NCBI GenBank assembly: GCA_021108035.1
Contig: JAIORQ010000076.1
Span: forward strand, 1 to 64,000
Direction: 5' to 3'
Origin: Bacteroidales bacterium
GTDB lineage: Bacteria; Bacteroidota; Bacteroidia; Bacteroidales; JAADGE01
DNA length: 64,000 bases
Within the stretch, counting starts at the first letter, position 1; each line of letters begins with the position of its first letter. Of this stretch, positions 50,661 through 57,783 are shown in pieces. The notes under the pieces are model-generated. The model worked only from the letters and a program-made list of their open reading frames with translations. It was not told the origin of the DNA and did not search any database. Made by a program: the position numbers and the translations under genes.

Positions 50661-53677
<3,017 letters not shown>

Positions 53678-53736
53678 AAGCATTTTCATTTTCCGATTAC
53701 ATTTTGTAATATTGTAAGAATAAATAATTTATAACT

Positions 53737-54258
53737 GTGGCTCTCAAAAATATTATTATTAAACGCAACATTAAGAAATCTGTACGAAAAGTACAATTTT
53801 TTAACTATGAAACTGCAAAATCCGTAGGTGTTTTGTATTGTATTGACAGCAAAACAAATTTTGATCGAATAAAGCAATATATTTCTGATCTGTCAAACAG
53901 AAATTTAAAAGTACATGCTCTCGGATTTGTAAAAAAACCTGATGAAATAGGTAAAACTTATTTCGGACAAGGAAATTTTAACTTTTTTTCTGAAAAACAT
54001 ATAGGTAAAACAGGAAAAATAAAGGAAATTTGTATCAGCGATTTTATAAATGCTGATATTGATTTAATAATAAACTTTACGACTTCCAATAATTTCTATT
54101 TGGAATATGTATTTGCACTATCGAAAGCAAAATTTAAAGTTTCAAGTATTATTGATTGCAAATATTCTGATTTAAATATTAATTATGACAGAAGCAAAGA
54201 CTTGAATTACTTTATATCACAAGTTGATCACTATTTAAGTACTATTAAAAAAGCTTAA
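53737..54258 (+). CDS. DUF6913 family protein
   Basis: The start is a GTG; no ATG is near. The 173-residue product is cytoplasmic and alpha/beta, with a conserved CxxDxK-type segment and the DLIINFTTSNNFYLEY region. In related Bacteroidota this gene usually lies between ligA and dapA. Here an ATPase/TOPRIM pair is inserted before dapA. Function is unknown. Confidence 0.85.
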   Translation: MALKNIIIKRNIKKSVRKVQFFNYETAKSVGVLYCIDSKTNFDRIKQYISDLSNRNLKVHALGFVKKPDEIGKTYFGQGNFNFFSEKHIGKTGKIKEICISDFINADIDLIINFTTSNNFYLEYVFALSKAKFKVSSIIDCKYSDLNINYDRSKDLNYFISQVDHYLSTIKKA

Positions 54259-54261
54259 ACT

Positions 54262-55350
54262 ATGATAAATCAATTAAGTATAAAAAACTTTAAATCAATA
54301 AAGGAATTAGATTTTAACCCCAAGCGGATAAATGTATTTATAGGTGCTCCTAATGTAGGCAAATCCAACATCTTGGAAGCTTTATCATTATTTAACGTTC
54401 CTTATATTGAAAATTCTGAAAACAAGTTTGAAGGTTTAATCAGACATAAAAATTTGAAAAATTTATTTTACGATAATATACCGAATGAAAAGATAGAAGT
54501 TAAAACAAATATTGGTGTTGCACAATTAAGATACAGATATAATCTTGATACATGTGATTTATTTTTAGGCAAAGATTCTTTGAATGATAAAGATTTAGTT
54601 TTAGAAAAAGATTACTCAACTTTAATATCAAAATTAAACAAATTAAATGAAAGGCATCCTAATGCTTTTAATTCTGATGAAATAACGTTCTTTTTCAGTT
54701 ATTTCAACCAATCCGGTAAAATATTTCAAACAGATGTTTCAAATCATTACAGTTCAATCAGAAAATATACTTTCAAAAAAGATATAGAAGGTATTAACGG
54801 TTATTTTAAATATTTACTGCCTCCTCACGGAGAAAATATAAATACAATAATTTTAAGAAACAAAGAAATTCATAAAGAAGCAGCATCTTTCTTTGAAATC
54901 TATGGTTTAGAATTTTTATATGATACAGAAAACAATCTTTTCGAAATTCAAAAAAAACAGGAAAAACTTATATATAAATATCCATATAAACTAATTGCAG
55001 ATACTTTACAAAGAATAATTTTCTATTTAACTGTTGTAGAAACAAATAAAAATACAAGCATATTACTGGAAGAACCCGAAACACATTCATATCCTCCATA
55101 TACAAAAATGCTTGCAAAACGAATTGCTTTAAGTGATACAAATCAATTCTTTATTACTACACACAGTCCGTATTTATTGTATAATTTAATTGAAAATACT
55201 GAATTTGAAGAACGAAACATTATTATTGCAGATTATAAAGATTATCAAACTAAAATAAAGATATTAAGTAAAGATGAAATTATAAACAGAATCTTGGAAG
55301 ATAAAATTGAAATATTCTTTAATATGGATAAATTCCTTTCTGATGAATAA
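54262..55350 (+). CDS. AAA (SMC/OLD-like) ATPase of a putative defence pair
   Basis: The 362-residue product is an ABC-type ATPase of the AAA_15/AAA_21 group. Walker A is GAPNVGKS (28-35), Walker B region SILLEEPETH (about 267-276) and the switch motif ITTHSPYLL follows. The usual Asp of Walker B is Glu (EEPE), and the signature loop before it (DTLQRIIFYL) lacks a canonical LSGG. The insert between the two halves is about 220 residues and has no coiled-coil heptads of full SMC length. It starts 3 bp after DUF6913 and overlaps the TOPRIM gene by 8 bp. This pairing resembles OLD-family and PARIS-type (AriA/AriB) antiphage systems. Confidence 0.85.
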   Translation: MINQLSIKNFKSIKELDFNPKRINVFIGAPNVGKSNILEALSLFNVPYIENSENKFEGLIRHKNLKNLFYDNIPNEKIEVKTNIGVAQLRYRYNLDTCDLFLGKDSLNDKDLVLEKDYSTLISKLNKLNERHPNAFNSDEITFFFSYFNQSGKIFQTDVSNHYSSIRKYTFKKDIEGINGYFKYLLPPHGENINTIILRNKEIHKEAASFFEIYGLEFLYDTENNLFEIQKKQEKLIYKYPYKLIADTLQRIIFYLTVVETNKNTSILLEEPETHSYPPYTKMLAKRIALSDTNQFFITTHSPYLLYNLIENTEFEERNIIIADYKDYQTKIKILSKDEIINRILEDKIEIFFNMDKFLSDE

Positions 55351-55882
55351 AAGCAAAATCAGAATCTTTACAGAAGGATATACAGATAAAATGCTTCTTG
55401 ATATCTTGGAGATTCATCCGAGGTATATTGAAGAAATTGGATCTGTTTCTCAGTTAGAAAGGAAAATGAACAAGGAATTAGACAAAAATTATCACAAAAC
55501 TATTGTAGGCATTGCAGATTTTGACAAAGGAAAGAGTTTGGAGTTTTTCAATGAATTTGAACTTTGTTCAGATCCTGATAATATCCTTTTAAAGAAACGA
55601 CCGGATTACAAACAATACATTATATTTATTAAACCTAAAGCGATTGAACGTTGGATTTTAGATGCAGCTGAGAGTGTTGGAATAAAACCCGAAGATTATA
55701 AACTTCCCTCAGAAATGAAAAAATTTAAAAAAGAAACTAAAAGTATCAATGTATCAAAAAATGAAAAACTTATCAGATTCATAAGAGCCATAAAAAAGAA
55801 AGAAGCAGAACCTTTTGAATATTTACAGGAAATATTACAAAAATTATTAACAGAAAATAAATATCCATGCAAAACAAATTAA
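55343..55882 (+). CDS. TOPRIM-like protein of a putative defence pair
   Basis: The ATG at 55343 is chosen: it overlaps the ATPase stop and gives a TOPRIM start, while the longer frame from 55307 adds residues without likeness. The 179-residue product shows the three TOPRIM acids: Glu11 in FTEGYTDK and Asp59/Asp61 in GIADFDKGK. The middle KPKAIERWILDAAES and Lys-rich C-terminus suit a DUF4435- or DUF4276-like nuclease. It overlaps dapA by 16 bp, so the pair has slipped neatly into the operon. Target and trigger are unknown. Confidence 0.78.
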   Translation: MNKSKIRIFTEGYTDKMLLDILEIHPRYIEEIGSVSQLERKMNKELDKNYHKTIVGIADFDKGKSLEFFNEFELCSDPDNILLKKRPDYKQYIIFIKPKAIERWILDAAESVGIKPEDYKLPSEMKKFKKETKSINVSKNEKLIRFIRAIKKKEAEPFEYLQEILQKLLTENKYPCKTN

Positions 55883-56745
55883 CAGGAACCGGAGTAGCAT
55901 TAGTAACTCCGTTCAGAAACGATGACAGTATTGATTTCAGTTCACTAAAAAAATTAGTTGAACATGTTGTAACCGGCGGTGTAGATTTTCTGGTTGTTAT
56001 GGGAACTACCGGTGAAAATCCGGTTTTATCACAACAAGAGCAAAAAACCGTTTTAGATTATATTATTGAAGTATCCGATAAGAAACTTCCTGTTGTGTTC
56101 GGTATAGGAGGCAATAATACACAAGCTGTTATCAATACCATAAAAGATACCGACTTTACTAATATTGATGCAATACTTTCGGCTACACCTTATTATAATA
56201 AACCTACTCAAAAAGGTTTATATATTCACTACAAAACAATTGCAAGTGCATGCCCTGTTCCGATTATATTGTATAATGTACCCGGAAGAACATCCGTAAA
56301 CTTAAATGCTGAAACAACGTTGAAATTAGCAAGTGATTTTAAAAATATAGTTGCAGTTAAAGAAGCATCCGGTAACTTTAATCAAATTATGCAAATTATA
56401 AAAAATAAACCTGATGATTTTACGGTGCTGTCCGGTGATGATACTTATACAATGCCATATATTGCAATGGGAATGGAAGGAGTTATCTCCGTTACTGCAA
56501 ATGCTTACCCCAAAGAATTTTCAGATATGGTAAGGGCTTCTCTTAAATATGATTTCAAAACTGCACAAGAGCTTCATTATAAACTTCTTGATTTATCAAA
56601 CAGCTTATTTCTTGAAGGAAATCCGGGAGGAGTTAAAGCAGCATTAGAAATTCTGGGAATCACCTCAAAATATGTTCGTTTGCCTTTAGCATCAGTCAGT
56701 AAAGGGACTTATAAAATTATTGAAACCCATATGAAAAATATTTAA
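55867..56745 (+). CDS. dapA: 4-Hydroxy-tetrahydrodipicolinate synthase
   Basis: The 292-residue product is a class I aldolase TIM barrel with GTGVALVTPF at the start, GTTGENPVLS for the pyruvate-binding loop, the catalytic Tyr in YNVPGRTSV (about 135), and the Schiff-base Lys in VAVKEASGN (about 163). It condenses pyruvate with aspartate semialdehyde in lysine and diaminopimelate synthesis. Its first 16 bases overlap the TOPRIM gene. Confidence 0.97.
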   Translation: MQNKLTGTGVALVTPFRNDDSIDFSSLKKLVEHVVTGGVDFLVVMGTTGENPVLSQQEQKTVLDYIIEVSDKKLPVVFGIGGNNTQAVINTIKDTDFTNIDAILSATPYYNKPTQKGLYIHYKTIASACPVPIILYNVPGRTSVNLNAETTLKLASDFKNIVAVKEASGNFNQIMQIIKNKPDDFTVLSGDDTYTMPYIAMGMEGVISVTANAYPKEFSDMVRASLKYDFKTAQELHYKLLDLSNSLFLEGNPGGVKAALEILGITSKYVRLPLASVSKGTYKIIETHMKNI

Positions 56746-56772: not shown

Positions 56773-57783
56773 ATGAATAAAAAAGAAAACATAAAATTCT
56801 CATTTATAATTCCTGTTTATAACAGACCACAGGAAGTTGAAGAATTACTTGAAAGTATGCATAAACAATCAAAAAAAGACTTTGAAGTAATTATTGTTGA
56901 AGACGGGTCAAATATAAAGTGTGATGAAATTGTTGAGAAGTATAAAAACTTACTTAATATTAAATATTTTTTCAAAAACAATACAGGCCCGGGGCAAAGC
57001 AGAAATTACGGAAGCGAAAGAGTTACCGGGAATTATTGTATTTTTTTGGATTCTGATTGCATTTTACCTGCGGATTATTTTGAAATTGTTCAAAATTCAT
57101 TAACGAAAAGTTTTGTTGATGCTTACGGCGGACCTGATAAAGCAGACAGCAGTTTTACTTTACTTCAAAAAGCTATTAATTATTCTATGACTTCTTTTTT
57201 TACTACAGGAGGAATACGAGGAGGCAGTGAAAAGATTGATAAGTTTCATCCTCGAAGTTTCAATATGGGGTATTCTAAAGAAGTTTTTAATCTTACAAAA
57301 GGGTTTTCAAAAATGCGATTCGGAGAAGATATTGACATGAGTATTCGCATTTTAGACAACGGATTCAAAACTAAATTACTTAAAGAAGCTTATGTATATC
57401 ATAAAAGACGTACAAATTTCAGACAGTTTTTCAAACAAATATATAATTCAGGAATTGCCAGAATAAACTTATCTAAAAGACATCCGAAGTCTTTAAAACT
57501 TGTTCATCTTGCACCGGCAATTTTCTTATTCGGTCTGATAAATTTGCTTATTCTGATTTTTTCCGTTTCAGTTTACTTTGTTATTCCGATTATAGCTTAT
57601 ACATTTATGATTTTTATTGATTCTTGGATAAAAAACAAAAATCTAAAAGTTGGATTATTATCGATATTAACAAGCTATTGTCAATTAACAGCTTACGGTC
57701 TGGGATTTATTACTGCTTTTTGGAAAAGAAATATCCTAAAAGGAGATGAATTTTCAGCATTTAATAAAAATTTTTACAAATAA
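56773..57783 (+). CDS. Family 2 glycosyltransferase
   Basis: The 336-residue product has a GT-A fold catalytic domain (about 8-235) with the SFIIPVYNRP start, an FLDSDC metal-binding motif near residue 94, and a GEDIDMS segment near 191. Two to three membrane helices lie at about 245-325, so it works at the inner membrane. Likely role is transfer of a sugar to a lipid carrier or polysaccharide; substrate cannot be named. It follows dapA by 27 bp on the same strand and is probably cotranscribed. Confidence 0.92.
   Translation: MNKKENIKFSFIIPVYNRPQEVEELLESMHKQSKKDFEVIIVEDGSNIKCDEIVEKYKNLLNIKYFFKNNTGPGQSRNYGSERVTGNYCIFLDSDCILPADYFEIVQNSLTKSFVDAYGGPDKADSSFTLLQKAINYSMTSFFTTGGIRGGSEKIDKFHPRSFNMGYSKEVFNLTKGFSKMRFGEDIDMSIRILDNGFKTKLLKEAYVYHKRRTNFRQFFKQIYNSGIARINLSKRHPKSLKLVHLAPAIFLFGLINLLILIFSVSVYFVIPIIAYTFMIFIDSWIKNKNLKVGLLSILTSYCQLTAYGLGFITAFWKRNILKGDEFSAFNKNFYK

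Follow-up and report, generated by a model that had tools for sequence, protein, structure and literature searches.

What does a pair of short, overlapping genes do between a DUF6913 gene and dapA? This question is raised by the stretch of DNA analysed here, 64,000 nucleotides of a Bacteroidales bacterium (contig JAIORQ010000076.1 of assembly GCA_021108035.1, positions 1-64,000, forward strand), which we refer to as the window. The four genes, DUF6913, an ATPase, a small TOPRIM-like protein and dapA, all lie on the plus strand in this order, and a preliminary description of the sequence had put the middle two forward as a candidate compact defence system inserted before dapA. We consider it probable that the pair constitutes a split OLD-like conflict (antiviral) module, in which the ATPase would restrain a TOPRIM nuclease and a variable insert within the ATPase would sense the trigger.

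Open reading frames, structural models and conservation agree on an ATPase and TOPRIM-like pair at this position, and the previously described lengths (362 and 179 residues) and overlaps (8 bp between the two genes, 16 bp between the second gene and dapA) were reproduced. Judged from the sequence, both are genuine genes and not chance open reading frames, since the ATPase matches the Pfam families AAA_15 (E 2.5e-14, 54.1 bits) and AAA_21 (E 7.1e-10, 39.9 bits) and relatives of the TOPRIM-like protein (in genome G013 at E 8.2e-64, and others) lie beside the same ATPase. The motifs named in the preliminary description, GAPNVGKS (residues 28-35), EEPE (270-273) and the THSP switch (300-303) in the ATPase as well as Glu11 and Asp59/Asp61 in its partner, are located as claimed, and Asp15 and Glu102 of the partner join the set.

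The first protein displays the features of an OLD-type ABC ATPase, namely a Walker A motif, a Glu-type Walker B, the H-loop histidine and an ABC head fold, for which SMC heads score equally well or higher. Its Walker B had been taken as altered and hence as a mark of novelty, a view we rejected because EEPE is usual for OLD proteins: the OLD protein of Thermus scotoductus (TsOLD) also has glutamate in place of the Walker B aspartate (PMC7049728). The AlphaFold model of the ATPase (pLDDT 93.4, pTM 0.92) has PtuA and TsOLD as its top Foldseek matches (E 6.3e-12 each), at low TM-scores of 0.40-0.44, and a profile of the ATPase compared with PDB sequences retrieved a retron-associated AAA ATPase (E 2.8e-11) and RecF (E 7.4e-6). 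The best PADLOC model for the window protein is HEC-01A (E 1.9e-19); as all 70 aligned ATPases of the family described below match the AbiLi, AriA, GajA and Old models as well as HEC-01A, with 141 PADLOC families matched overall, such matches designate the protein simply as OLD-like.

For the partner protein the models predict an OLD-like TOPRIM fold, by a modest margin. In a VIA-align comparison of its AlphaFold model (pLDDT 93.8, pTM 0.88), the five top entries are the Toprim regions of three OLD proteins (Z 8.5-9.1), led by TsOLD (Z 9.1, 125 aligned residues, 3.0 A) and followed by BpOLD and XccOLD (8.5-8.8), so the failure to model as TOPRIM that would have refuted the earlier defence idea did not occur. 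The acidic residues follow the OLD pattern of E, D at +4, D-x-D and E: the set E11, D15, D59, D61 and E/D102 is kept in 69-73 of 73 aligned sequences, ordered as in the OLD two-metal site. By motif order these residues would be the counterparts of E377, D381, D431, D433 and E480, the two-metal site residues of TsOLD (PMC7049728). A possible candidate for the catalytic Lys/Arg, which is R487 in TsOLD and K562 in BpOLD, is K133, a lysine in 50 of the 73 rows. The window protein reaches no Pfam family cut-off and matches no model in PADLOC or NCBIfam, so that the defence-finder search proposed earlier recognised the ATPase, through a generic match, and left the TOPRIM protein unmatched. Apart from HEC-01B (see below), the 73 TOPRIM proteins gave marginal PADLOC hits to SIR2 (2 members, 0.0015), PDC-M02A (1 member, 2.9e-4), a cyclase (1 member, 0.0015) and others, all of which we regarded as chance.

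As judged by its relatives, the pair is a widespread two-gene family and not a lone oddity. A scan with the ATPase profile over one genome per GTDB species, a sample containing many metagenome-assembled genomes, confirmed, at E 1e-3, no fewer than 460 stretches out of 591 candidates, among which other OLD-like ATPases are to be expected, and the pairing counts rest on the best 80 of these confirmed loci. A gene with TOPRIM motifs lies directly downstream in 76 of the 80 (73 by a motif test; L097, L098 and L146 by eye), and the two genes overlap in 54 of the 73. In one of the 76 (L135) the TOPRIM gene is seemingly split into two frames, while in the remaining four loci it is damaged (L158, L170) or none was found (L165, L172), giving five of 80 loci with a damaged or missing TOPRIM gene beside an open ATPase frame. 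The ATPase alignment comprises 69 of the 80 loci plus the window (70 rows; L127, L135, L142, L152, L153, L158-L160, L165, L170 and L172 were left out) and the TOPRIM alignment 72 of the 80 plus the window (73 rows), omitting L111 (127 aa), L135, L143 (extended) and L167, as well as the four damaged or missing cases; the more distant L009 and L010 were dropped from one alignment (A3).

Carriers of the pair include isolates of Hymenobacter, Spirosoma and Larkinella, and a shorter form occurs in Stahlbacteria, Thermococci, Methanophagales, Methanoperedens and other archaea. An archaeal pleolipovirus, Geoglobus ahangari pleomorphic virus 1 (GahPV1), encodes an ATPase that is 36% identical at 99% coverage, and the gene after it specifies a protein of 149 aa in which the TOPRIM-like motifs recur. 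This protein, gp16 (L266 3966-4415), is annotated as hypothetical; it lies after an annotated AAA ATPase and between two winged-helix regulators. Among relatives of the window genome the pair is seldom met. Out of 148 related genomes, the TOPRIM sequence found matches in 11 (G001 and G109 at E 0.008-0.009 only) and the ATPase, searched at E up to 1e-20, in 8, both counts taking in the window genome, and the two genes are adjacent in all six other genomes that have both (G013, G017, G019, G036, G055 and G090). With the TOPRIM profile, 16 genomes out of 393 from the order (two at E 6e-4 only) and 10 out of 395 from the phylum gave matches, and the window genome is part of either count; the figure was 19 of 121 in one family, which had been picked because carriers were known in it. 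A pattern search of genome contigs with the window TOPRIM alone confirmed nothing, and a search of viral contigs with this protein gave no match; the ATPase profile found 16 loci in viral contigs, with 23-29% identity over short Walker B stretches, which were rejected as generic. One genome, G019, has a second pair of the short form (329 + 148 aa; L022/L090, contig C288) beside an apparent leuC, in addition to its long form on contig C183.

At the DUF6913-dapA site the pair is absent from, or differs in, the closest relatives. Twelve of the 13 other congeners (G001-G012) have a DUF6913-dapA spacing of 4-19 bp without an insert, the contig of G011 starting inside DUF6913, and G013 is the only one with the pair at this site. 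The earlier remark that the spot is usually without such genes is therefore true within the genus, and in the gene-order comparison that had been called for the pair is far from being present at this locus in nearly all relatives. Between the window and G013, the proteins of ligA, DUF6913 and dapA are 95-96% identical (DUF6913 96%, dapA 95%) at a synonymous divergence (dS, by the Nei-Gojobori method, rough and unreliable above about 1) of 0.14-0.25, while the ATPases are 65% identical at a dS of 1.65 and the TOPRIM proteins 62% at 1.28; nucleotide identity drops at the ATPase start and returns at dapA. Since protein-level rate alone would not lift synonymous divergence five- to twelve-fold, at least one of the two lineages has probably acquired a divergent cassette in one piece. 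No transposase, integrase or other mobility gene of its own lies within the pair, no repeats or target-site duplication flank both of its borders, no RNA element was found at it, and a promoter and terminator scan gave 13 promoter-like sites against 16.1 expected and no terminators. Absence or exchange in close relatives, between ordinary metabolic genes, suggests that the pair is a swappable immune cassette.

At a second, independent site, flanked by metG and an epimerase gene, the pair is found in Larkinella isolates. The dS of the ATPase lies above that of both flanks in all six Larkinella comparisons, and the dS of the TOPRIM gene does so in five; L. punicea and L. humicola (L119/L156), for instance, show 2.28 for the ATPase and 1.50 for the TOPRIM gene against 0.25 for metG and 0.31 for the epimerase gene. 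Over all 11 comparisons at this site, which were chosen by hand and include five from other genera with flank dS above 1.2 that are little informative, the ATPase exceeds both flanks in 10 (the remaining one is saturated) and the TOPRIM gene in 8. A metG match was present in 60 of 61 genomes, and the 30 best-scoring metG loci that we viewed have the pair (4), the epimerase gene within 0.5 kb (10), the epimerase gene about 1.1-1.2 kb away (3) or neither (13). Three of the ten metG-epimerase loci without the pair (L237, L238 and L239) retain 5' remnants of the ATPase gene. The remnant in L238, 126 bp, is 94% identical to L236, next to a metG stretch with 80%. Elsewhere, G017 and G036, which belong to different families, have an ATPase dS of 0.41 while SufB is saturated, indicating horizontal transfer, and the TOPRIM gene of G017 has an in-frame stop between the two aspartates of the D-x-D motif.

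Over the family as a whole, one segment of the ATPase is highly variable. Mean pairwise identity is 0.10-0.15 in the blocks covering residues 81-160, of which blocks 101-140 contain 38-46% gaps, compared with 0.62-0.79 in the Walker A and B blocks. L. punicea and L. terrae (L119/L136) agree in 98% of the N-terminal 52 residues, 37% of residues 53-172, 93% of the remainder and 85% of the TOPRIM protein; a compensated frameshift, considered because the insert scores 73% as DNA, was ruled out by alignment. Out of 15 ATPase pairs with a core identity of at least 75%, ten have an insert identity below 40%, an example being the Hymenobacter pair L109/L120 with 15% in the insert and 80% in the core, and the other five, all of the short form, range from 44 to 92%. 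This pattern fits a specificity segment, with weak constraint on the segment as the alternative.

A mechanism can be proposed by analogy with PARIS, where AriA holds AriB until a phage protein releases AriB to cut tRNA (PMC11455837; PMC12409363). The ABC ATPase would bind and restrain the small stand-alone TOPRIM nuclease, and its variable insert would sense a trigger derived from the invader. Once released or activated, the TOPRIM protein would cleave nucleic acid, either host RNA, in the manner of AriB, or DNA, in the manner of OLD, and would so stop phage growth, probably at the expense of the cell. Lying between ordinary genes, often near enough for shared transcription, the cassette would be gained, lost and swapped for other alleles, most simply via recombination in the flanking genes. 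The antiphage role, complex formation, sensing, nuclease activity and co-transcription are all parts of this scheme that we infer.

A number of observations weigh against this reading. The TM-scores of the ATPase are low, and its highest VIA-align Z-scores go to SMC heads (17.8, versus 16.0 for TsOLD). For the TOPRIM model, the OLD score lies just about 2 above unrelated MogA-type and gephyrin folds (from 7.0 down), and among the entries below OLD, which start with PH0156 (7.7), GajA (up to 7.4), PARIS AriB (6.6) and retron Eco2 (6.0) are not separable from the background. Foldseek found no TOPRIM match for this model at E 0.001 or better, and the TOPRIM profile retrieved no TOPRIM protein among PDB sequences; its nine matches, the best at E 0.0023 to a helical DnaJ-family segment, were judged chance. 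Kinship with DUF4276 was weak (hhalign probability 10.7%) and was rejected. The ATPase found one virus in the phage set, at E up to 1e-10, and one partial match among plasmids, at E up to 1e-20; the window TOPRIM found no match in either set. There are no clear defence islands: in a scan without control regions, any one PADLOC family was matched by three neighbour proteins at most. The scan covered 131 out of 223 such proteins at 68 loci, and 10 of the 11 metG-site loci as well as two others contributed none. Moreover, dS between the window and G013 is even along the ATPase (1.64-1.69), and between L119 and L136 the ATPase after the insert has a dS of 1.40, so the exchanged stretch is not neatly limited to the insert, and the TOPRIM dS of 0.71 is not above the flanks. 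Finally, the OLD relative Cran1 is reported to act in the archaeal cell cycle and, apparently, not to be antiviral (PMC12796447).

Comparison with known systems bears on how the pair should be classified. With OLD nucleases (TsOLD, BpOLD, P2 Old, GajA) it shares the ATPase with a glutamate Walker B and an H-loop histidine and the TOPRIM motifs E-x3-D and D-x-D, but unlike the single-chain fusions of OLD classes 1-3 and Gabija it consists of two separate short proteins, in the window and in 76 of the 80 loci, and no helicase of the GajB type was noticed next to the pair in the window. Septu resembles it through PtuA, which shares the top Foldseek rank for the ATPase, yet the Septu partner PtuB is an HNH nuclease, whereas the window partner is TOPRIM-like and matches no HNH family. 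That the pair is merely a divergent PARIS or HEC-01 system is quite unlikely in our estimation. Like PARIS it has two genes for an ATPase and a stand-alone TOPRIM protein, all 70 ATPases match AriA as well as HEC-01A, and the Pfam bit scores of the window ATPase exceed the thresholds of 32 (AAA_15) and 27 (AAA_21) in the PARIS detection rule, which also defines AriB by DUF4435 (PF14491; PMC9122126). However, a scan of 28 TOPRIM proteins of the family for PF14491 gave no hit even with E up to 1, and the pair falls outside PARIS for want of a DUF4435 partner; the kinship with the OLD/PARIS core proposed earlier stands for the ATPase and not as PARIS membership. The proposed resemblance to PARIS in mode of action is a separate matter from membership. 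As for HEC-01, a PADLOC candidate, the open reading frames in which DUF4276 and HEC-01B are found show E-x3-E near their start, and the two coincide in a single frame where both are found. Two HEC-01B models each match 2 of the 73 TOPRIM proteins (E about 0.005) and DUF4276 matches 1 of 18 (E 0.08), but neither the HEC-01B nor the DUF4276 models match the window protein, which on this evidence lacks the character of a DUF4276-type HEC-01B partner, and the ATPase matches are generic. The passages of PMC8565338 that were consulted do not mention HEC. The window's own genome (G000) contains two partial DUF4276 matches above the family cut-off, at C37:9216-9692 and C77:27659-27853.

Two further explanations assign the pair another function. 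It might be an accessory of DNA repair or chromosome maintenance, like RecF with RecR or like Cran1, and have no immune role; we regard this as unlikely. The RecF match in the PDB, although surpassed by that to the retron-associated ATPase, the leading position of the SMC heads and the cell-cycle role of Cran1 speak for it, whereas patchy distribution, with 12 of 13 other congeners missing the pair, argues against it, and divergent alleles at fixed sites, a variable insert and repeated damage to the TOPRIM gene would be unexpected. A selfish cassette, either toxin-antitoxin-like or homing, whose nuclease promotes its own upkeep or its copying into empty sites with immunity at most as a side effect, is in our view the least likely of the alternatives. 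It would account for a compact, overlapping pair between core genes, with adjoining frames intact and without a mobility gene, and for divergence that begins and stops at the pair borders. A damaged TOPRIM gene beside an open ATPase frame is also expected of a toxin and its restraint and does not decide on this explanation, since the toxin can go before the restraint. On the other side, the ATPase remnants imply that the cassette is deletable at the metG-epimerase site, and neighbours that differ between clades reveal no common target. Deletion of either PARIS gene was reported to be non-toxic, which was taken to exclude a toxin-antitoxin system (PMC9122126), yet a commentary groups PARIS with toxin-antitoxin systems (PMC11455837).

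Beyond the split OLD-like module favoured above, we propose tentatively, and with more doubt than confidence, that such pairs make up a class of their own among split OLD immune modules, found in bacteria, archaea and an archaeal virus, for which housekeeping operons may serve as fixed docking slots. Whole cassettes, and sometimes mainly the sensor segment, would be swapped through recombination in the core genes on either side, without a mobile element, and close relatives would thereby differ in specificity at one and the same locus. As a general kind, OLD-ABC ATPases linked to a TOPRIM nuclease are already in print, in the dyads of Aravind and colleagues (PMC12839542); no description of this TOPRIM family was recognised in a literature search, whose scope excluded most subscription papers and the original ABC-ATPase classification. 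If immune, the two genes would make a compact system spanning about 1.6 kb. Its TOPRIM effector is missed by Pfam, NCBIfam and PADLOC models in the window and marginal in relatives, and finders built on such models would miss or misfile the system in Bacteroidota and archaea. Because the sites lie mostly among ordinary genes, island-based searches may overlook the family as well. In Larkinella and Hymenobacter, alleles that share their flanks and have much the same ATPase core, but differ in the insert, offer a natural swap series for the specificity of an OLD-type sensor.

Table 1. Coordinates of the pair, its motifs and its flanking genes in the window
Feature	Position	Strand	Support or conservation
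DUF6913 gene, left flank	53737-54258	+	GTG start; Pfam DUF6913 E 1.8e-30
OLD-type ABC ATPase, predicted sensor/regulator, 362 aa	54262-55350	+	Pfam AAA_15/AAA_21, AlphaFold, Foldseek, alignment with 69 relatives
Walker A GAPNVGKS, residues 28-35	54343-54366	+	N31, G33, K34, S35 invariant in 70 rows
Variable ATPase insert, about residues 81-165, proposed trigger-sensing segment	54502-54756	+	low identity, gaps
OLD-type Walker B and following loop EEPETH, residues 270-275	55069-55086	+	E270, E271, E273, H275 invariant in 70 rows
Stand-alone TOPRIM-like protein, predicted metal-dependent nuclease (effector), 179 aa, ATG start	55343-55882	+	AlphaFold, VIA-align
TOPRIM motif E11-x3-D15, metal A / metal B ligands	55373-55387	+	E11 73/73; D15 69/73 and 3 Glu
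TOPRIM motif D59-x-D61, metal A ligands	55517-55525	+	D59 73/73; D61 72/73
E102, likely second metal B ligand	55646-55648	+	61 Glu and 12 Asp of 73
dapA, right flank	55867-56745	+	Pfam DHDPS E 4.7e-82

The neighbours of the pair vary widely among loci and clades and include apparent core genes; by their sequences, they presumably encode MurD, FtsW, EF-P, MetG, SucB, MutS, a glycosyltransferase, SufB and others. Upstream of the pair in G036 (L071 321-3042), an ATPase-like gene (509 aa) is followed by a 392-aa gene, by eye a possible further ATPase-based conflict pair. Near the window pair, the spacer between ligA and DUF6913 is longer in G013, with 318 gap columns in a 200-base bin at about 53660-53860 of the window. 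The gene after dapA (56773-57783, a glycosyltransferase by sequence) forms a second divergent islet relative to G013, with 55% protein identity and a dS of 1.28 between neighbours at 0.25 and 0.07.

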